Shown: positions 47,749-59,607 of the stretch, in pieces
Position numbering within the stretch: the first letter of the stretch is position 1
Layout: the number at the start of each line of letters is the position of its first letter
Notes under the pieces: generated by a model
What the model saw: the letters and a program-made list of their open reading frames with translations, nothing else
Databases searched by the model: none
What the model was told of the DNA's origin: nothing
Made by a program: the position numbers and the translations under genes
Assembly: GCF_000969885.1 (NCBI RefSeq)
Contig: NZ_CP009501.1
Coordinates: 1,054,001-1,118,000 of the forward strand
From: Methanosarcina thermophila TM-1
Lineage (GTDB): Archaea; Halobacteriota; Methanosarcinia; Methanosarcinales; Methanosarcinaceae
Direction: 5' to 3'
DNA: 64,000 nucleotides

Positions 47749-48801
47749 ATGGTAAACGTAATTTCCCATATGGGAGTGGGTCTACTCATAGGTCTGGCTT
47801 TAGGCCTGAAAGGAGACAAGTTGAGAGCCGTAGTGTTATTATCCGTGCTTCCTGATCTGGATTACATCCTGTACTCTGCATTTGTCTTTACCGAAATCAG
47901 TCTGAGCCCTGAGGCTAGAAACCAGCTTTTCTATCTGATCGGGCACAGGGAATTCACGCATTCCGTACTCTTCATTGTCATGGTTACACTTTTTATCTGG
48001 TTTAAGACAAAAGACTGGCTTTTTACTGTCGGAGGATTCCAGTCCCTTTTCTTCCACTCCTACCTGGATTACGTTACAAGCTGGAAAATGCGTCCTCTCT
48101 ATCCCTTCAGTACAGATACGTCTATTATGAGAGCCGTTTATTTCTTTGACCCCCTGTTAAATTTACTTCCTCTCCTGCCTCCCTTCATTGTGATTATGGG
48201 AAGTTTGAGCAACATGAAAAAAATCAACGGGAAAATAAGAAGCTTCTGCACGTTAATATCAAATATCGATGATAAGCTCTATTCCTCTCTAATTCTTCTG
48301 TTACTAGTCTGGCTAACCTTCATGCCGATTTCAAAAGCTTTCCTGATCAACCATATTTCCGAGATCGAAGAAGCCGAAATAAGCTACCAGAGTACCTATC
48401 CCGAATCCGTGGATAAGTTCCTGACAGCGTACTCATATAACTCTACACATTATAAAGTCCTCAGAGTAGGTTATCTCTCAGGGATCGAGGAAAGCTTCTA
48501 CGTTGAAAAGGTTTCCGTGGAGGGAAACATCTCGGATTTTGAGGATTACATAAAAAGAGCGGAGAATCTGTACAGGGAAGGTGTATCTGATGAAATCGAT
48601 TATCCTGTTTACAGCGTTTCGGGAGATAATAATACGGTAACGGTTACCCTCAGTGATGCAAGAAATCCGTATCTTGAAGAACTGGCTTATTTTAAGTCGT
48701 TTTACAGGTTTATTTTTGACAGGAACAGTACAGAGTATGAAGTCTACGCAGGTATGTATGGGGGACAGGAAGAGAGGCTGGGCAAGAACTGGTATGGATG
48801 A
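47749..48801 (+). CDS. DUF457 membrane-bound metal-dependent hydrolase (copy 1)
   Basis: A 350-residue protein of the YdjM/DUF457 family. The N-terminal half has membrane helices and conserved metal-site candidates: ISHMGVGLL, LPDLDYI, GHREFTHSVLF and FHSYLDYVTS. The C-terminal half (about 200-350) lies after one more helix and is soluble, with VYSVSGDNNTVTVTLSDARNPYLEELAYF, probably exported. Two paralogues follow (49238, 51515), about 60 per cent alike by eye. Substrate unknown; the family has been linked to phospholipid or stress responses in bacteria. Confidence 0.85.
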   Translation: MVNVISHMGVGLLIGLALGLKGDKLRAVVLLSVLPDLDYILYSAFVFTEISLSPEARNQLFYLIGHREFTHSVLFIVMVTLFIWFKTKDWLFTVGGFQSLFFHSYLDYVTSWKMRPLYPFSTDTSIMRAVYFFDPLLNLLPLLPPFIVIMGSLSNMKKINGKIRSFCTLISNIDDKLYSSLILLLLVWLTFMPISKAFLINHISEIEEAEISYQSTYPESVDKFLTAYSYNSTHYKVLRVGYLSGIEESFYVEKVSVEGNISDFEDYIKRAENLYREGVSDEIDYPVYSVSGDNNTVTVTLSDARNPYLEELAYFKSFYRFIFDRNSTEYEVYAGMYGGQEERLGKNWYG

Positions 48802-48904
48802 GCTTCTCAGTCATTACCCTCAAGTAAATAGCCTATGAAAGAATACCATGAGAATCATAGTGTCTTGCCTTCTGTACAGCAGATATCCAAAAGCGTGTCC
48901 TAGT

Positions 48905-49000
48905 TTCCCTTTATACCTGATTGATATTACTGTTCTGATTTACCTTTATACCTGATCGGATTATTATTCTGATTTCCTTTTACACCTATCGAATTACTAT
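48905..49000. repeat. three imperfect direct repeats of about 34 nt
   Basis: Units like TTTACCTTTATACCTGATCG followed by GATTATTATTCTGA occur three times in a row, the third more diverged. They lie in the 436-nt spacer between DUF457 copies 1 and 2; the rest of that spacer is AT-rich with no gene. Confidence 0.55.
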
Positions 49001-49237
49001 TTATCAATTCTTTTATATAATATCAGGCGAATATTATAGATGCTTTCTCAGCAAACTATCAAAAAGAGATTACTCAAACTAAATCAGAAAGAGTGCTTGG
49101 AGTACGACATAAAAATCCATGATTTAGATACGCAGTTGGAGAACTGTTAAAATCTGTTAAGAATTATTAGAAAAATTATAGAGATATTACCAAAAACATT
49201 AAAATTTGGCTAAAAAATTTACACAGACGGTAAATTT

Positions 49238-50317
49238 ATGGTAAATACACTTTCCCATCTTGGAGTCGGTCTGCTCCTTTCCTATGCTCTGGGTCTTAAA
49301 GGAAGGAAGAGACTGGTTTTACTCTTTCTTTCTTTACTTCCAGATCTTGACTACTTCACATATTCGGTATTTACGCTCATCAGCGGCAGTGTAAGCCATG
49401 AGGCTCGGAACCAGCTATTCTACCTGCTTGGTCACAGGGAGTTTACACACTCGATTTTTTTTGCTTTCCTTGTCGCACTTCTGATCTGGTTCAGTACTAA
49501 AGACAGACGCTTTACTTTCGGAGGGCTTCAGGCTGTTTTCCTTCATATTTTGCTCGATTATACAACAAGTGCAAAAATGCGCCCCTTCTATCCGTTCAGT
49601 ACCGAGGAGTCAGCTCTCAGAGCCATTTATCCCTTCGACCCAATTCTAAACCTTCTCCCGCTGCTGCCTCTGTATATAGTGGCTTCAGAATTTGTTAAAA
49701 ACAGCTGGAGTACTAAAGACAGGGATACTTGGAACAGGAAGCTTAATGGGTTAAACAGGTTCCATAGTCTTGTGAACAGAAACGAGAAGAAATTCTATGC
49801 CTCCGTAATCCTGGTTCTCCTGCTCTGGATCGTGGTTTTTCCGGTTGCAAAAATCTCCCTGATCAGGCATGTTTCCGATACTGAAGGGACCGAGATAAGC
49901 TACAGGAACACTTATCCAATATCCATCGGCAAATTCCTTGCAGCCTACTCGTACAGTGATACCCATTACAAGCTGATAAAAGTCAGCTACTGGTCAGGAG
50001 TTGAGAAGAGCTTTTATGTCGAAAAAGTCTCAGTAACAGGCAATGTCCCTGACGCCCAGGCATATGCCGAAAGGGCAGGAAAACTTTACAGTGCTTCAGT
50101 ACCCCAGGCAATTGATTATCCCGTGTATTCAGTCTCCGAAGAAAACGGGTTAGTAACCGTGGTTTTGAGCGATGCCAGAAATCCGTACGTTGACAAATGG
50201 CCTTACTTCGATACAGTCTACAGATTCGTTTTTGATAGAGAGAGCGGAGAATATGAGGTATATGAGAGCCATTATGGAAGACCGGAAAAGAAGCTCGATA
50301 AAAATTACTTTGAATAA
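49238..50317 (+). CDS. DUF457 membrane-bound metal-dependent hydrolase (copy 2)
   Basis: A 359-residue paralogue with the same layout: LSHLGVGLLLSYAL, LPDLDYF, GHREFTHSIFF, LHILLDYTTS, then SVLLLWIVVFPVAK-type helix and a soluble C-terminal part with VYSVSEENGLVTVVLSDARNPYVDKWPYF. The sequence is as complete as copy 1. Its own promoter region precedes it. It is convergent with superoxide dismutase, with a bidirectional terminator between them. Confidence 0.85.
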   Translation: MVNTLSHLGVGLLLSYALGLKGRKRLVLLFLSLLPDLDYFTYSVFTLISGSVSHEARNQLFYLLGHREFTHSIFFAFLVALLIWFSTKDRRFTFGGLQAVFLHILLDYTTSAKMRPFYPFSTEESALRAIYPFDPILNLLPLLPLYIVASEFVKNSWSTKDRDTWNRKLNGLNRFHSLVNRNEKKFYASVILVLLLWIVVFPVAKISLIRHVSDTEGTEISYRNTYPISIGKFLAAYSYSDTHYKLIKVSYWSGVEKSFYVEKVSVTGNVPDAQAYAERAGKLYSASVPQAIDYPVYSVSEENGLVTVVLSDARNPYVDKWPYFDTVYRFVFDRESGEYEVYESHYGRPEKKLDKNYFE

Positions 50318-50328
50318 CTCAAATAAAT

Positions 50329-50449
50329 AAAACTGCTTTGAGTGAAGTTGCTTTTAGTGAAGCTGCTTGAGTGAGGCTGCTTCGAGTGAGGCTGCTTTGA
50401 GTGAAACTGCTTTGGGTAAAGCTGTTTTGAGTGAAACTGCTTTGAGTGC
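50329..50449. repeat. tandem array, eight copies of a 15-nt unit
   Basis: The unit is AACTGCTTTGAGTGA with one to three changes per copy, directly after DUF457 copy 2. The flanks also repeat (AACTCAAATAAATA at the start, TGCTCAAATAAATA at the end). It is non-coding in all frames that matter. Confidence 0.75.
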
Positions 50450-50490
50450 TCAAATAAATATAAACTTGCTTTTGATAGAAAAAAGCCTTA

Positions 50491-50527
50491 TTTCCAATTA
50501 CCCTTAAAATAAAAAGGTAATTGGAAA
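50491..50527. terminator. bidirectional terminator between DUF457 copy 2 and sod
   Basis: A perfect 12-bp stem TTTCCAATTACC/GGTAATTGGAAA with a 13-nt loop lies between convergent genes, with T- or A-runs on both sides. Confidence 0.7.
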
Positions 50528-50584
50528 AATTTAATCAGAATGGAACAGACATTTTAAAGACAATTTTTAGACTAGATTTTTCGA

Positions 50585-51196
50585 TTATTTTCTCACTTTC
50601 ATGAAGTATTTGTCAATTTCTTCCCAGTTGATTATATTCCAGAATCCTTCTATGAACTTGCCCCTATCATTCTTGTAATCAATATAGTAAGCATGTTCCC
50701 ACACATCAAGGTCCATGATAATCGGATAATCGGGCACAAGATTTACGTTGTGCTTCTCGATCTGCAAAATCATGAGCCTTTCCGTATCCTTACAGTAGGT
50801 CAAGGCTGCCCATCCGGAACCTTCAACACTTAATGCGACCTGAGAAAACTCCTTTTTAAACCTGTCAAAGCTTCCGAAATTTTCTTTGATCACTTCAGCC
50901 AGTTCGCCGACAGGCTCTTTACTTGAGTTGCTCTCTGGGGTCATCTCCCACCAGAAAAAGTCATGAAGGACATGCCCGCCGAGATTGAATGTCAGAGCTT
51001 TTGCGGCGGCTTTATAATCAAAATCCGTTCCTTCTTTCCTTGCCTTGTCCATCATCTCTATAAGTGAGTTTGCATTGGTCACATAAGCCTGATGATGCTT
51101 GTCGTGGTGAATGCGTAGCTGTTCTTCGGAAATGTAAGGTTCAAGGTCTGAATAGCCATATTTCAAATCTGGTAACTTGTATAACCCTTTAGCCAT
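50585..51196 (-). CDS. sod: superoxide dismutase, Fe/Mn family
   Basis: A 203-residue Fe/Mn superoxide dismutase. The four metal ligands are His in LRIHHDKHH, His in GGHVLHDFFWWEM and the Asp and His of DVWEHAYYIDY. It removes superoxide in the cytoplasm, part of oxygen tolerance. The metal cannot be decided from sequence; methanosarcinal enzymes tend to use iron. A TATA-like TTTAAATA near 51277-51284 suggests a leader of about 60 nt. The gene is surrounded by DUF457 paralogues. Confidence 0.95.
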   Translation of the reverse strand: MAKGLYKLPDLKYGYSDLEPYISEEQLRIHHDKHHQAYVTNANSLIEMMDKARKEGTDFDYKAAAKALTFNLGGHVLHDFFWWEMTPESNSSKEPVGELAEVIKENFGSFDRFKKEFSQVALSVEGSGWAALTYCKDTERLMILQIEKHNVNLVPDYPIIMDLDVWEHAYYIDYKNDRGKFIEGFWNIINWEEIDKYFMKVRK

Positions 51197-51514
51197 GTTG
51201 TTATCCCCTATTCCTGATCAAATACATACTAAATCGCCAGATGGCAATTCCAATGCAGAATATAGTTATACGCCGCATCTATTTAAAGGTAAAAGATGCA
51301 AACTATGAAAGATTCTTGTAGAAACCTATCTGGATTAGTATTAACTCTCTGGATATTATAAGAATATATAAGAATTCGAACTATTTTTATCTTCTGTTAT
51401 TATATCTTCCGCTCATGCCATCTTTTTTCTTTTTGGTTTCCTCTGTTTCTCCAAACCTTTCAATTAAAAATATATATTTTCACAGTTATTTTCTTTAACT
51501 AAGGGATAAAGAAA
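51197..51514. other. divergent promoter region of sod and DUF457 copy 3
   Basis: About 320 nt carrying the promoters of two divergent genes. CTATTTAAAGGT near 51279-51290 (minus TATA) serves sod; ATATATATTTT near 51470 may serve the other gene. No small gene seen. Confidence 0.4.
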
Positions 51515-52597
51515 ATGGTAAACACACTCTCCCACCTGGGAATTGGCTTATTGATCGCTCTTGTCCTCGGCTTCAAAGGAAAAAAGCGAAATGAAGTAGC
51601 TTTCATGTCAATTCTTCCGGATCTGGATTTTATACCATATGCGGTATTTGCCCTCATTGCCGGCAGTTTAAGCCATGAGGCTAGAAACCAGCTTTTCTAC
51701 CTTTTCGGGCACAGGGAATTCATGCACTCCATCCTTTTCATCCTGTTTGTAACGCTTTTGATCTGGCTCAAAACAAAAGACCGCCTGTTCACGGTTGCCG
51801 GGCTTGCAGCCATCCTTTCCCACGTCTACCTCGATTACGCGACAAGCTGGAAGATGCGCCCCTTTTATCCGTTCAGCACTGAAACATCCACTCTCGGAGC
51901 CGTTCACTTTTTCGACCCGCTGGCAAACCTCATTCCTCTGCTGCCCATTTTTATAGTACTCGTGAGCTACCTGAAAAACCGGGGAAAATGGAGCGGGAAA
52001 TTCGAGAATTTCTGTGCCTTTGTCACGAGCAACCGCAGCAAATTCTATACAACCCTCGCAGTCGTGCTTGTAATCTGGCTTGTTGCATTCCTGCCTGCGG
52101 CAAAACTATTTCTTGTGAATTATATTTCTGGCGCGGAAGGAGCAAAAATCAGCTATCAGAATACCTATCCCTCATCCTTCGGGAAATTCATTACCGCATA
52201 TCCCTATAACGCCACCCATTACAAAATCATGGAAGTGAGCTACTGGTCAGGCATCGAAAGAAGTGATTATATCGAGAAAATTAACGTGACCGGCAACGTT
52301 TCCGATGCCGCCGCCTATGCCGAGAGAGCCGGAAAACTCTACAGCACAGCCGTTCCGCAGGAAATCGATTATCCTGTCTACAGCGTTTCGGAAGGAAATG
52401 GATCGGTAACTGTCACGCTGAGCGATGCCAGAAATCCGTACGTTAAGTACTGGGCTTATTTCAAGAAGGTTTACAGGTTCGTTTTTGATAGGGAAAGCGG
52501 AGAGTATGTTGCGTATGCGAGCGATAGGCAGGGAGAGAGGGAGGAGAGATTGGAGGAAAATTGGTTTAGAGATATTTCATCTCTCAAAATCAGTTAA
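51515..52597 (+). CDS. DUF457 membrane-bound metal-dependent hydrolase (copy 3)
   Basis: A 360-residue third paralogue: LSHLGIGLLIALVL, LPDLDFI, GHREFMHSILF (Thr replaced by Met in the HREFTHS motif), SHVYLDYATS, and C-terminal VYSVSEGNGSVTVTLSDARNPYVKYWAYF. The last 21 nt overlap a small convergent frame. The three copies differ mainly in the soluble half. Base composition is slightly GC-richer than the following HD-HSP90 gene. Confidence 0.85.
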   Translation: MVNTLSHLGIGLLIALVLGFKGKKRNEVAFMSILPDLDFIPYAVFALIAGSLSHEARNQLFYLFGHREFMHSILFILFVTLLIWLKTKDRLFTVAGLAAILSHVYLDYATSWKMRPFYPFSTETSTLGAVHFFDPLANLIPLLPIFIVLVSYLKNRGKWSGKFENFCAFVTSNRSKFYTTLAVVLVIWLVAFLPAAKLFLVNYISGAEGAKISYQNTYPSSFGKFITAYPYNATHYKIMEVSYWSGIERSDYIEKINVTGNVSDAAAYAERAGKLYSTAVPQEIDYPVYSVSEGNGSVTVTLSDARNPYVKYWAYFKKVYRFVFDRESGEYVAYASDRQGEREERLEENWFRDISSLKIS

Positions 52598-52759
52598 CTC
52601 ATAATTCCAGAACCAAGGAAAGTCATCAAATGAAAAACCGATAAAGTCTTCATCATGAGAAATAACCCCTAAGTCTTTTGCCTCTTCCCAGTATTGTTCT
52701 ACTGCTTCATAGAACTCATGGAATATTTCTGGGTAATACTTGAGAACTCCAATTAACAT
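52577..52759 (-). CDS. small acidic protein, possible partner of HD-HSP90 gene
   Basis: A 60-residue acidic, aromatic frame (VEQYWEEAKDLGVISHDEDF; FDDFPWFWNYEL) 100 nt downstream of the HD-HSP90 gene on the same strand. Amino acid composition looks real rather than random, but there is no good ribosome-binding site and it overlaps the 3' end of the opposite DUF457 gene. I do not recognise a family. Confidence 0.4.
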   Translation of the reverse strand: MLIGVLKYYPEIFHEFYEAVEQYWEEAKDLGVISHDEDFIGFSFDDFPWFWNYELTDFER

Positions 52760-52860
52760 GTAATTGATATTACTACTTATCTGTAGTTTATAATTAGGTC
52801 TAAAAGATGAAAAATATAATCTACTATATAGATATGATAAACATTCTTCCAGATAATTGG

Positions 52861-55551
52861 TTAACTTATATATTGCCTTTTTAGAAGCTTCATTTTGGGT
52901 TCTCCGCCGTTTAGAAGTCTTGCAAATAGTGGATGAGAAGCGTTGTAAATTACTTCTGTGTCAGCCGCTTTATAGAAGCCTGGAGGATGTACAAAAATTG
53001 GTGCTTTTCCTATTGAACCAATATGTATTTGCTGTATAAACTTGTTATATTTTCTAAAAACAATATTTTCATCACTTTTTTTAGTATTATAAAATGTTTT
53101 GATTACTACTCCTGGTATCGAAGTAATATAAATTTCTGAAGAATCTCCTAAGATTTCATTTAAGAAACTATTTCGCTCCTCTTCACCTTCTTCTTGCATA
53201 AGAAGAATGGTTCTTGGGCCAATAAGACTCTTAGTTTCTTCCAATATTTTAGCGTCAGTTATTTTCTCTGGAAGGTCATTAGCGCCAGTAATTGCCAAAT
53301 TTGTTATATTATCCAGTTCCTTCAAAGTTTTATATTTTCTTTGTCCATCGTCAGAAATAGTTAACAATGGTACATAATTTAAAAAGATTTTTACCAGAGT
53401 ATTCTTAGATTTTTCACAATAATATAAGCCTTTATATAATAATGATCCCGATAAACTCAGGATCTCATCTTCTAATAGTTCATTAACTTTTTCGATATAC
53501 TGTTCAACTGAACTTGAATCATTAGTAGTCTTCAAATATTTCTCGAGTCCCTCTAAAATATTTTGCTCTATTTTACCAATAAATTCATAATATTTCTCAT
53601 CCATAATTACATGTGATCTACTGGGAGATAATGATAATTTAGACTGGCCGGAGATGTTTATTGATGCTTGAATGGCTGCCTTGTAAGATAGCCGTCCAAG
53701 TGGGAATTCGCTACTGGGGATTGCAAATCCCCTTTGAGCGATAATACTTAGAACAGTAGGTTTTAAAAAATTAGGTTTAACAACGTATAGTTTTCCCTCT
53801 ATGCCCTCCTTTTTATCATCGAATGAAACTTCAAAGTGTTCTTTCACGACGTTTTTACTTCTTATTTTTTCCCCTGGTAAAAGAGGTTCATATTTGCTCT
53901 TTCCTTTGTCAGTATTAATTTCTATCTGATATTCTATGAAAGGAGCTATTTCTGAAATTGTCTTTACTAATGTCTCGGCGGAAAATGGATGATTGGGTTT
54001 TAAATACAAAGTTATCTTTGTTCCATACTTAGAACGATTAGATTGCTTTCTTATAAAATAATCATAAGCTGTTGGAATCTCAAAATATATTGGTTCAGAG
54101 GGATTAAACTCTTCTTCAAACGTTTTCCTTCTACTCTCAACAGTAAACTTATCGGCAACCATAAAGACTGATAAAATACCTATTCCGAATTCACTTACTG
54201 GATCTACATCTACATTCTTTTGCCGAAACTCTGGACTCTGGTAGTAACTTCTACCGACTCTCATGAAATAATTCTTAAATATTTTTTCATCCATCCCTAT
54301 GCCATTGTCTTCAATAATCAATTCGTTATTTCTCAAAGAGACTTCTATAGAAGGTTTATATCCATTTCCTTCTCTTTTTTCTAGAGACTCTCTATAACGT
54401 ACGGCATCTACAGAGTTCTGTAGAAGCTCTCTAAGTGCTACAATCGGATTTCTATAGAGTCCTTCTCCCATCAATAAGTCAAGTACTCTACGATAATCAA
54501 GTTCAAAACGGAAATCACAGTATTCATAGCCAATAGAATGAATCTCTGCATCAACTGGCTCAGAAAGTTTAAGTATATACTTATCCTCTAAATTGTCTCT
54601 GTAACTTGAGACTAATCGATAGCTATCTTCAATTTCCTTATCGATTTCTTTTATGAATTTTCTAAGTGTTCGTTCCTGTTCTGGATGTTTACAATTAGCT
54701 ACAATTTTTATCTTCTCAGGTGTAATTTGAAATCCGGTTATAGAGAGATGTTTTTTCCACTCTTTGATACTAACCTCGTCTTTTGGATTTATGTAGTAGA
54801 ATAAATGTCTCGGAGTTCTCTCGGGATCTACATCCAAAATATCAGCCAATCGAAATATTACAGCTAAATACTGAACATTTACTAGTTTATTCAGTACGAC
54901 AGTATCATTTGGCCAAGATTTAGTATTATACAAAGCTTTTACTGGAAGCTCATGACTGTCACATACCGCCCTTACCAAGTTACCATATGGAATGTTTTTC
55001 CATGAAATTTCAGAATCCAATTTATATTCATCGATTATTTTGTGTGCGCGTTGAACGTGATTTTTTCGAAGAAAATCAGTAAAAGCTTTGTTTTCAATAG
55101 CAAGCACTACTTCATAATCACTATTGTTTTTCGCTTCCTCCAACTTTCTGTATAGTTCTTCATTTGAGGTTAAATGTTTTTTAAATTCACTAGTTTTAAC
55201 TATCTGCTTCCGCTCATCAGAAGATGAGATCATTCCTATATCATGAAGATAGGCAGCATAAATAAGTATGGAAATCTCAATAGTGTTTAATTGTTTAAGA
55301 GTTTCACAAGGTATTATTTTGTCCATATTTTCAATTACATGAACGCTGTGATTAGCATTATGCAATGTGAATTCAGGCATGTTTTCTGGAACTCTTTCTA
55401 GCAAAGGAGCAGCCTTGCGAACAACTGAAATTATATTTTGTGAAATCTCATAATCTTCGAATGAGGTCTCTTTCGATTCTTCTTTCTCTTTCTCACGAAG
55501 CTTTTTAAACAGAACAGTTTGTTTTAACCTGAGAATCGCATCTTCAGACAT
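52861..55551 (-). CDS. HD-domain + HSP90-type ATPase fusion
   Basis: An 896-residue two-part protein. Residues about 60-250 form an HD metal phosphohydrolase: H64/H68 in HNANHSVHV, H103-D104 in LHDIGM, H200 in CDSHE and D237 in RLADILD. Residues about 355-700 are a GHKL/HSP90-like ATPase: ALRELLQNSVDAVRYR (E375, N379, D382), IEDNGIGMD, SEFGIGILS and YGTKITLYL. The C-terminal 200 residues are unassigned. It is AT-rich compared with its neighbours, suggesting acquisition. Related HD-ATPase fusions are thought to act in prokaryotic conflict or stress responses; that role is inferred. GGAGCAG precedes the ATG. Confidence 0.85.
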   Translation of the reverse strand: MSEDAILRLKQTVLFKKLREKEKEESKETSFEDYEISQNIISVVRKAAPLLERVPENMPEFTLHNANHSVHVIENMDKIIPCETLKQLNTIEISILIYAAYLHDIGMISSSDERKQIVKTSEFKKHLTSNEELYRKLEEAKNNSDYEVVLAIENKAFTDFLRKNHVQRAHKIIDEYKLDSEISWKNIPYGNLVRAVCDSHELPVKALYNTKSWPNDTVVLNKLVNVQYLAVIFRLADILDVDPERTPRHLFYYINPKDEVSIKEWKKHLSITGFQITPEKIKIVANCKHPEQERTLRKFIKEIDKEIEDSYRLVSSYRDNLEDKYILKLSEPVDAEIHSIGYEYCDFRFELDYRRVLDLLMGEGLYRNPIVALRELLQNSVDAVRYRESLEKREGNGYKPSIEVSLRNNELIIEDNGIGMDEKIFKNYFMRVGRSYYQSPEFRQKNVDVDPVSEFGIGILSVFMVADKFTVESRRKTFEEEFNPSEPIYFEIPTAYDYFIRKQSNRSKYGTKITLYLKPNHPFSAETLVKTISEIAPFIEYQIEINTDKGKSKYEPLLPGEKIRSKNVVKEHFEVSFDDKKEGIEGKLYVVKPNFLKPTVLSIIAQRGFAIPSSEFPLGRLSYKAAIQASINISGQSKLSLSPSRSHVIMDEKYYEFIGKIEQNILEGLEKYLKTTNDSSSVEQYIEKVNELLEDEILSLSGSLLYKGLYYCEKSKNTLVKIFLNYVPLLTISDDGQRKYKTLKELDNITNLAITGANDLPEKITDAKILEETKSLIGPRTILLMQEEGEEERNSFLNEILGDSSEIYITSIPGVVIKTFYNTKKSDENIVFRKYNKFIQQIHIGSIGKAPIFVHPPGFYKAADTEVIYNASHPLFARLLNGGEPKMKLLKRQYIS

Positions 55552-55849: not shown

Positions 55850-56368
55850 GTGAATTATTTTACTGTATTTACGGATGTAATACTGAAACCTTCAGAGTTT
55901 TTCAAAAAAATGCCTCGTGAGGATAGTTTCGTTCATCCTTTGATTTTCAGCATAATATTTCTATTACTTACAGTATTAACTGGACATTTTTTTGATAGTA
56001 TTTACCTAAATAAATACATTGAAATCCCTGGACCTGTCTTTATTACTGAACTTTTGCAAATTTTCTTTTCTTATGCATGTGTCTCAATAGGATGTGTTTT
56101 GTCTTTTAAATTTCTTGCAAATAAAGAAAATTATGAAGAATCTTTTAAAATAGTTGCTTACTCGTTTGCAGTTTTACCTTTTCAATTTATTCCTTTTTCT
56201 CTGATACCAATAATAGCCAGTATATATTGGATACATATTTGCATTCGAGGAGGGCAGTTTGTTTATAATCTGAGTTATTGGAAGTCATGCTTTATTGTAT
56301 TGATAGGATCATTAGTCTTTCCTATTCTGCTAGCTTTTCTAATAATTGACATCACTTTATATCTATGA
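55850..56368 (+). CDS. Yip1-domain membrane protein
   Basis: A 172-residue protein with five predicted membrane helices. The opening FTDVILKPSEFFKKMPRE, followed by helices, is the standard Yip1-family start in prokaryotes. Function in prokaryotes is unknown. The start appears to be GTG after GGAAGTGTTAAT. It is divergent from the HD-HSP90 gene and shares its AT-rich composition, so the two may belong to one acquired segment. Confidence 0.75.
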   Translation: MNYFTVFTDVILKPSEFFKKMPREDSFVHPLIFSIIFLLLTVLTGHFFDSIYLNKYIEIPGPVFITELLQIFFSYACVSIGCVLSFKFLANKENYEESFKIVAYSFAVLPFQFIPFSLIPIIASIYWIHICIRGGQFVYNLSYWKSCFIVLIGSLVFPILLAFLIIDITLYL

Positions 56369-56751: not shown

Positions 56752-59607
56752 TTATTCAGTCTTCTCAACCTCTTCGGGCTCGTCTTTATCAGCGTCTTCA
56801 GGTTCTTCGGCTTCTTCGTCAGCGGCTTCGAGGTCTTCAAACTCTTCAGCCTCTTCAAAGTCTTCTTCGGCTTCGTCTTCCTGAAGATTGGTTTCATTGC
56901 CGGCTGAAGCTGCTTCTGCGGCTTGCCGGGATCTGGTGGCTTTGGATTTCAGTTCTTCTTCGGTTTTACCGTTCTGGATCCTTGCCACGCCTGCGACTGT
57001 GTCACCGGGTTTGAGGTTAATGAGCCTTACGCCCTGAGTGTTTCTACCATGGATTGGGATATCTTTGACCGGGATGCGGATTATTATGCCATCTGCGCTG
57101 GTGAAGATAAGCTCGTCATCCTGAGCTACGGACCTAACTCTCGAAACCGGGCCGTTTCTCGCGCTGGTGACTATCGTTTTCACACCTTTTCCGCCGCGGC
57201 GGTGCAGAGGATACTGGGAGTACTCAGTTCTTTTACCAAAACCATTTTCAGTAACGGTTAGGAGGGTTGCGTTCTCGTCAACAAGATCCACGCTTACAAC
57301 CTCGTCTTCGGGACCGTCAAGGGTCATACCGCGGACGCCTCTTGCGGTTCTGCCCATCGGGCGGACATCTTCTTCCGAGAAGCGGATAGCTTTTCCTTTT
57401 CTGGATACCATGACCACTTCCTTATTCCCGTCAGTCAGCAGAACCTTCACAAGCTCATCGCCTTCGTCAAGGGTGACTGCGATTATGCCTGCTTTTCTTG
57501 GGTTCCTGAACTCGGAGAGAGGCGTCTTTTTGACAATGCCTGCCCGTGTTGCCATAAGCAGATAATGGTTTTCGTCAAACTCTTTTACCGGGATCATGGC
57601 ATTGATCATTTCGCCTTCATGGAGTTCAAGGAGGTTTACTATGGCTTTGCCTCTCGACTGGCGGGGACCTTCCGGGATCTCATAAACTTTCTGCCAGTAG
57701 ATCCTTCCCAGGTTTGTAAAGAACAGGATATAATCGTGGGTTGAAGCAATGAAAAGATTTTCCACAAAATCTTCTTCCTTTGTCTCCATGCCGATTATAC
57801 CCCGCCCTCCTCGGCGCTGCATGGTATAAGTGCTGAGAGGTAGACGTTTTATATAGCCTCCGTTCGTAATCGTGACCACAACTTCTTCTTCGGGAATGAG
57901 ATCCTCTTCCCTGACCTCAGCAACTGCAGGCAAGATTTTTGTCCTGCGGGCATCGCCATATTTTTCCTTGAGCTCCAGGAGTTCATTCCTGATTATCTCG
58001 TATTTGAGCTCATCACTTTCAATAATTTTCTCTAGTTCGCCAATCAGCTTTATAAGACTCTCAAGTTCCTCAATGACCTTTTGAGTCTCAAGCCCTGTCA
58101 GGCGCTGTAACCTCATATCAAGGATAGCTTTTGACTGTATCTCATCAAGGGCGAAATTCTCCATCAAGCCTCGCTTTGCTTCATCCGCATTTGCCGAGCC
58201 CTTTATAAGAGCAACAACGGCATCTATGTTATCCAGAGCAATTTTCAGCCCTTCAAGGATATGGGCTCGCTCCTCGCTCTTTCTGAGGTCATAAAGCGTC
58301 CGCTTCTGGATAATCTCCATCCTGTATTCCAGGTAGATCTCAAGAAGCTCTTTCAGGTTCAACTCCTTTGGCTTTCCGTCAACAAGAGCCAGGTTAATTA
58401 TCCCAAAAGTGGTTTCCATTTGTGTGTGCTTATAAAGCTGGTTTAAAACGACTTTTGGATTTGTGCCTCGGGAAAGCTCAATAACAATCCTGATTCCTTC
58501 CCTATCAGACTCGTCCCGAAGGTCTGAAATTCCAACGATTGTTTTTTCCCGAACTAACTGGGCAATATTTTCAATCATCTTGGCTTTGTTTACCTGGTAG
58601 GGAATCTCAGTTACGATAATCTGCTGCCTGTCTTTCTTTAACTCCTGAATATCGGCAACTGCCCGAACCTTTACAGTGCCACGCCCTGTCATATACGCCG
58701 ATTTTATGCCTGCAGTTCCGATAATATTAGCCCCAGTTGGGAAATCCGGTCCTTTGATCACAGTCATGAGTTCAGGAATAGTGGCGGTTGGGTTTTCGAT
58801 AAGCATCAGGGCTCCATCAACTACCTCTCCTAAATTGTGGGGAGCCATATTCGTCGCCATCCCGACTGCGATACCCGTGGATCCATTAATAAGGAGGTTC
58901 GGAAGCTTTGCAGGAAGGACTTCGGGCTCTTCCAGTGACCCGTCATAATTGGGTCTGAAAGGTACGGTCTCCTTGTCGATGTCAGCCAGCATTTCCTCTG
59001 CTATCTTGTCCATACGGACTTCGGTGTAACGCATGGCAGCAGCGGAATCACCATCTATTGACCCGAAGTTTCCCTGTCCATCAATTAAAGGATAGCGGAG
59101 GGAGAAATCCTGAACCATACGCACGATGGTGTCATAAACTGCAGCGTCTCCGTGCGGGTGGTATTTACCGAGCACGTCTCCCACCACACGGGCAGATTTT
59201 TTATATGGCTTGTCGTATGTGATTCCTGCTTCCTTCATGGCAAAAAGAATCCTGCGATGGACAGGTTTTAAACCGTCGCGAGCATCGGGAAGAGCTCTTC
59301 CAACAATGACACTCATCGCATAATTGATATAGGAGCGCTTCATCTCGTCATCAATAAGGACGGAAGTAACTCCCACTCTTCCGGGTTCAGGCTCCTCGTC
59401 CTCGGGCTCTCCGTTTTTCGGCTCCTCAGGTACAGGATCTGGTAGGGTTATCTCGGTGTTTTCATCCAGCTCCTCTGGTATGGAGTAGGGTGCAGTTTCC
59501 TGTTCTTCTGCTTCCGGCTCTTCGTCCGGCTCGTCAGGGATAAGCGTAGATTGATAAAATTTTTTCATTTTAGATTCCGATTTATTCTCTTCTTGGTCAT
59601 TTGCCAT
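56752..59607 (-). CDS. gyrA: DNA gyrase subunit A with acidic extensions
   Basis: A 951-residue type IIA topoisomerase subunit. The core starts with [32 protein letters not shown]; the active tyrosine is in [10 protein letters not shown]; the C-terminal pinwheel has the GyrA box QRRGGRG, diagnostic for gyrase rather than topo IV. Unusual are an acidic N-terminal extension (residues about 1-78: [18 protein letters not shown]) and a very acidic C-terminal tail (last 65 residues). It introduces negative supercoils. GAGGTGG precedes the ATG; gyrB ends 11 nt upstream. Confidence 0.96.

Follow-up and report, generated by a model that had tools for sequence, protein, structure and literature searches.

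Immune proteins that couple a GHKL ATPase to a hydrolase are known from prokaryotes: in VcSduA, a Shedu protein of this kind, both the ATPase and the nuclease are required for phage defence (PMC12137116). The HD-CE domain (PF24391) is found in a further group of proteins including RT_UG24, where it is fused to a reverse transcriptase. HtpG/Hsp90 proteins combine an ATPase domain with middle and C-terminal domains. Our literature search returned no paper on HD-CE together with Hsp90 and no known activity for the combination, and the combination is not recognised as a defence system by any PADLOC or NCBIfam model.

The window analysed here, a 64,000-nucleotide stretch of the Methanosarcina thermophila TM-1 genome, contains a gene, hdce-hsp90, that resembles each of these systems in part (Table 1). 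Like VcSduA, its product carries a GHKL ATPase and a hydrolase domain on the same chain, but the effector of VcSduA is a C-terminal PD-(D/E)xK nuclease, whereas here an N-terminal HD enzyme precedes an Hsp90 clamp. It shares the HD-CE domain with all metal ligands with RT_UG24 and other HD-CE proteins, but the fusion partner is an Hsp90-like machine rather than a reverse transcriptase. With HtpG/Hsp90 it shares the ATPase and middle domains with the catalytic Glu and Arg, and probably a C-terminal domain with an NPxHPL-like motif; it differs in its HD-CE domain, in a middle/C-terminal part too divergent to be recognised by PF00183, and in being patchy and mobile rather than housekeeping. The DUF4263 PD-(D/E)xK nuclease that marks Shedu/SduA was not detected in the window protein by Pfam and PADLOC scans, nor does the protein contain the reverse transcriptase domain of DRT UG24; the PADLOC RT_UG24 model matches only its HD-CE part. 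We propose that hdce-hsp90 encodes a single-gene antiviral effector, in which an Hsp90-like clamp would sense a viral client and activate a two-metal HD phosphodiesterase (probability about 0.5). A role of the gene in defence is in itself quite likely.

Table 1 Features of the hdce-hsp90 gene and its flanks in the window
Feature	Coordinates	Strand	Basis
Entire hdce-hsp90 gene with frameshifted tail	52577..55551	-	orthologs of 981-997 aa align across both frames; ~985 codons in relatives
Truncated 896-aa open frame, as called in the earlier note	52861..55551	-	ORF
HD-CE domain (predicted phosphohydrolase), residues 58-308; ligands H64, H103, D104, H165, H200, D237	54628..55380	-	PF24391 E 5.6e-52
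Hsp90-type N-terminal ATPase, residues 345-550; E375, N379, DNGIGM 415-420, G2 box 456-460	53902..54519	-	HATPase_c_3; HtpG/PRK14083 E 2e-29; PDB Hsp90 NTDs
Mosaic boundary, ~residue 540, at ATPase/middle-domain junction	53925..53940	-	identity drop vs M. spelaei; tree conflict
Hsp90 middle domain (predicted), ~residues 551-810; invariant R645	53122..53901	-	Foldseek of fragment model; hhalign to HtpG
Start of probable Hsp90 C-terminal domain, N870/H873 motif (VIYNASHPLFARLL)	52897..53121	-	hhalign to HtpG CTD motif
One-base frameshift, codons 886-887 (near 52,894)	52885..52897	-	DNA alignment with three relatives
C-terminal tail in a different frame, predicted dimerisation helices; includes the small acidic frame 52577-52759	52577..52888	-	77% identity over 90 aa to intact ortholog
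ydjM3, conserved gene bordering the variable locus; 3' end overlaps the hdce-hsp90 stop	51515..52597	+	YdjM E 1.3e-19; synteny
Yip1-family membrane protein, occupant of the variable locus	55850..56368	+	PF04893 E 3.9e-14; 53% identical copies at the locus in two other species
gyrA, conserved gene bordering the variable locus	56752..59607	-	present in 29/31 species

An earlier note on this DNA, made from the sequence alone, had described an 896-residue protein standing alone beside a small acidic frame. The single 896-codon ORF is indeed present, but it does not reach the natural end of the protein: the seven intact Methanosarcina orthologs have 981-997 aa, and the window copy alone is frameshifted. 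The small acidic frame is the gene's own split-off tail, corresponding in another frame to the last ~60-90 residues of the orthologs, and is thereby ruled out as an independent small gene; its PRO8NT match (E 0.0012, under the cut-off) is spurious. The frameshift falls directly after the C-terminal motif, and the predicted terminal helices, ~100 residues, are lost with it. A programmed frameshift is held unlikely from the DNA alignment, because no relative needs one. Since the last ~100 residues are removed, the window copy has probably been newly inactivated, barring an assembly error at the base. That it is by now a dead pseudogene without a function in M. thermophila TM-1 has slightly better than even odds and is compatible with the antiviral reading of the family; the tail-removing lesion is confined to this genome while all seven orthologs are intact. 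Against an established pseudogene, this is the sole lesion: the tail frame remains open, is 92% identical to one relative over 60 aa and shows no second lesion, so that the break is either very recent or a sequencing error.

The fusion of an HD domain to an HSP90-type ATPase, which the earlier note had recognised together with the HD ligands and the N, G1 and G2 box residues, holds up in both halves. The PF24391 match scores 177.5 bits against a cut-off of 27, and the six HD ligands are invariant in 16 diverse archaeal and bacterial relatives. The H-HD-H-H-D pattern is typical of two-metal HD phosphodiesterases. When the HD-CE profile was compared with the PDB, the matches were weak (best E 0.009) and nearly all to cyclic-nucleotide phosphodiesterases, besides one predicted HD hydrolase. 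Judged by the curated HMM and the metal ligands, the protein belongs to the HD-CE group and is predicted to be a phosphohydrolase; an inactive HD site, which the earlier note had named as a ground for abandoning its reading, is not suggested by these intact ligands. More distant HD-CE proteins, in frames of 877-1214 aa, are also found in Methanosarcina outside the gyrA-ydjM locus described below (L022:8558-11191(-) in G002; L074, L076 and L078 in G006, G025 and G008), and are ~25% identical to the window protein or match its HD-CE part alone.

In the Hsp90-like half, HATPase_c_3 covers residues 371-476 (Pfam, E 1.2e-9), and NCBIfam HSP90-family models match residues 348-556 far under their equivalog cut-offs, the HtpG equivalog reaching 82 bits against 371. 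PF00183 matches in none of the 31 Methanosarcina genomes, and the window protein is therefore regarded as Hsp90-like rather than as an HtpG ortholog. The residues E375, N379, D415, G417/G419, G456/G458 and R645 do not vary among nine full-length relatives, bacteria included, with R645 at the position of the catalytic arginine of the Hsp90 middle domain. An hhalign comparison with HtpG extends over residues 351-676 (E 5e-17), thus spanning the segment with R645, and the HtpG C-terminal motif is matched with E 0.0095, a value reached by none of 60 column shuffles. The M. spelaei ortholog was also modelled with AlphaFold2 from a low-depth alignment of nine rows (pLDDT 71.8), and in Foldseek this model matches full-length Hsp90, TRAP1 and HtpG (best E 4e-17, ~690 columns). 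Because the ATPase domain could drive this whole-model match, a separate model was built of the part following it (pLDDT 66); Hsp90 accounts for all of the first 30 PDB matches of this fragment, over the middle domain (best E 7e-5), with a TMt of 0.55 to the yeast Hsp90 middle domain 1usv. The modelled architecture is thus HD-CE, ATPase and Hsp90 middle domain, probably followed by a C-terminal domain, whose dimerisation helices are predicted with low model confidence and are missing from the open frame of the window copy. The C-terminus, left unassigned in the earlier note, thereby finds a predicted identity, and a C-terminal effector of a new type is ruled out in favour of Hsp90 domains by Foldseek, hhalign and the C-terminal motif.

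Full orthologs are present in only eight of the 31 Methanosarcina species searched, which rules out the universal housekeeping gene that would have spoken against the earlier note's reading, and in 10 of 295 genomes sampled across the phylum. Seven of the eight Methanosarcina copies lie in the same variable interval, bounded by gyrA and ydjM3. The gene region is AT-rich, as noted earlier, with 30-34% GC vs 45-50% in gyrA, and the Yip1 neighbour also named there is confirmed as another occupant of the interval. The earlier note had also suggested looking for the gene in defence islands; the interval is one that PARIS and further systems recognised by PADLOC occupy as well. In other species its occupants, read at this one locus from the whole interval or the part reachable from one flank, include PARIS AriA and AriB, PDC-S39 (E 4e-221), an NB-ARC/TPR protein, a CARF-PDDEXK-like protein (E 7.6e-9), TPR and pentapeptide proteins, and IS21 elements. 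There are also AAA_14-DUF4143 proteins matching PDC-S01 (E 7.6e-106), although AAA genes of this type are common and are weak evidence for defence. In one species (L029) the site is nearly empty. PARIS directly adjoins hdce-hsp90 on the same strand in M. spelaei and UBA11020; the two systems share the locus, but their proteins are unrelated.

Several further features of the interval were observed. A repeat-like protein of ~950-1113 aa that fits no clear family often occupies the interval (L023:615-3956(-), L034:1240-4413(+), L033:1216-4065(-), L032, L026 and L042) and is a candidate defence gene. A chagasin-like peptidase inhibitor I42 gene of ~104 aa borders the interval on its gyrA side in many species (~14 copies of the locus, e.g., L015:14086-14403(-)). 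C-terminal fragments of ydjM recur within L033, L043, L025 and L026 (G008, G010, G030 and G005), and recombination or insertion may take place at the ydjM 3' end. In the window itself, three tandem ydjM-family paralogs surround a Fe/Mn superoxide dismutase gene (47749-52597), and no RNA family was detected by Rfam within 46-62 kb.

In the eighth species (G007), hdce-hsp90 is flanked by a PolB gene and a Cas1 remnant, in casposon territory, with a complete Cas1 (E 1.4e-64) and an Mrr-type nuclease close by. There (L100:2390-5913), within ~10 kb of hdce-hsp90, a casposon-like Cas1 adjoins the Mrr-type restriction nuclease (PDC-M58A-like, E 3.2e-11). Beyond Methanosarcina, nothing was returned by a single-sequence genome scan, but an alignment-based scan succeeded, yielding full-length relatives, 36-39% identical in their best-matching segments, in Paenibacillus and Mucilaginibacter; within 8 kb of these chromosomal copies, no obvious defence neighbours were seen by eye. 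In one archaeal relative (G101), the gene is placed between a type I methylase gene and a SIR2 gene of PDC-S65 (E 1.8e-202); all three and a 163-aa frame share one strand. The 18-20 kb stretches that hold the plasmid-borne relatives also contain Shedu (E 1.8e-90), type I RM, SIR2 and AbiEii genes. The gene is therefore found in a defence locus or on a mobile element, with a patchy distribution. Of the defence or stress effector put forward in the earlier note, the defence part gains ground from the variable locus shared with PARIS, the casposon location, the defence-linked relatives, the patchiness and the exchange of the C-terminal module described next, while the complete stand-alone protein of 896 aa has to be given up.

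The window copy is a mosaic on sequence grounds, with residues 1-540 grouping with one clade and the remainder with another. It is 82-92% identical to M. spelaei up to residue 540 and 32-48% thereafter, vs 43-72% and then 50-89% for G010. In the N-half tree it groups with the spelaei clade (97/95), the alternative grouping being rejected (p-AU 1.4e-4); in the C-half tree it groups with G010/DH2/MSH10X1 (96/99), and the N-half grouping is rejected (p-AU 4.7e-4). These p-values are somewhat optimistic because the groups were chosen after the identities had been seen. In addition, the median end-branch length is 0.38 for the C half vs 0.092 for the N half, a roughly fourfold higher rate of evolution in the Hsp90 half. 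Exchange at the junction together with a fast client-binding half would show the pattern of a recognition module under virus pressure.

By analogy with VcSduA, the proposed effector would work as follows. At rest, the N-terminal HD-CE domain, a putative two-metal phosphodiesterase or phosphohydrolase, would be kept inactive. A viral protein or viral-stress signal would be bound as a client by the fast-evolving middle/C-terminal part, ATP-driven closure of the clamp would release the HD site into activity, and the active site would destroy a nucleotide pool, a signalling nucleotide or nucleic acid, stopping the infection. A more specific version is tentative: an Hsp90 chaperone may have been turned into an immune receptor, in archaea otherwise without Hsp90, with a client half that would recognise viral proteins, diversify through recombination at the ATPase/middle junction and upon closure activate the fused HD phosphodiesterase.

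The control could also run in the opposite direction, with HD-CE as a sensor that binds or hydrolyses a signalling nucleotide and controls an Hsp90-like clamp acting on viral or host proteins. The weak profile matches to cyclic-nucleotide phosphodiesterases point this way, and protein clients are targets of other GHKL proteins, but it is the Hsp90 half that is swapped and diversified while the HD half is conserved, which suits recognition better than output, and HD-CE is also fused to an unrelated RT defence protein; we regard this wiring as unlikely. Somewhat less probable still is an accessory stress chaperone with a nucleotide-hydrolase tag, substituting for Hsp90 in archaea that lack HtpG and unrelated to viruses. 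Hsp90s are ordinarily chaperones, so that a stress role is possible, and the absence of PF00183 from all 31 Methanosarcina genomes and the Hsp90 N and M domains with their catalytic residues would fit it; a distribution over eight of 31 species, known defence systems at the same locus, carriage by a casposon and the adjoining PARIS in two species argue against it. A selfish addiction gene, that is, a toxic HD hydrolase restrained by its own Hsp90 part and maintained with the casposons and plasmids that carry it, is improbable, as no conserved separate antitoxin gene adjoins it and the majority of copies sit at one fixed chromosomal locus.

If the antiviral effector reading is true, the prokaryotic immune receptors known so far would be joined by a chaperone-based sensor. 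Control of a hydrolase by a GHKL ATPase is already known; an Hsp90 clamp with a swappable client half would be new with respect to the literature searched. The gyrA-ydjM interval represents a probable chromosomal defence hotspot of Methanosarcina, in which new archaeal defence systems may be sought among the large uncharacterised genes, and the finding would tie casposons to defence cargo.

Viral sequences were also compared. No relatives were found in the viral contigs searched; among phage records, one weak match spans the HD-ATPase part (human faecal contig, 22.6%) and the others cover the Hsp90/ATPase part alone. A structure search against viral proteins recovered T4-type RIIA proteins of many phages and HtpG-like proteins of haloarchaeal tailed viruses (BFVD R4T9B1, L7TK51), which share the Hsp90-like fold but are viral and show no HD-CE. 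Since RIIA is known to counteract exclusion by RexAB, interference with systems of this kind by viral Hsp90-like proteins is conceivable. These modelled folds hint that Hsp90 may be used on both sides of the virus-host conflict.
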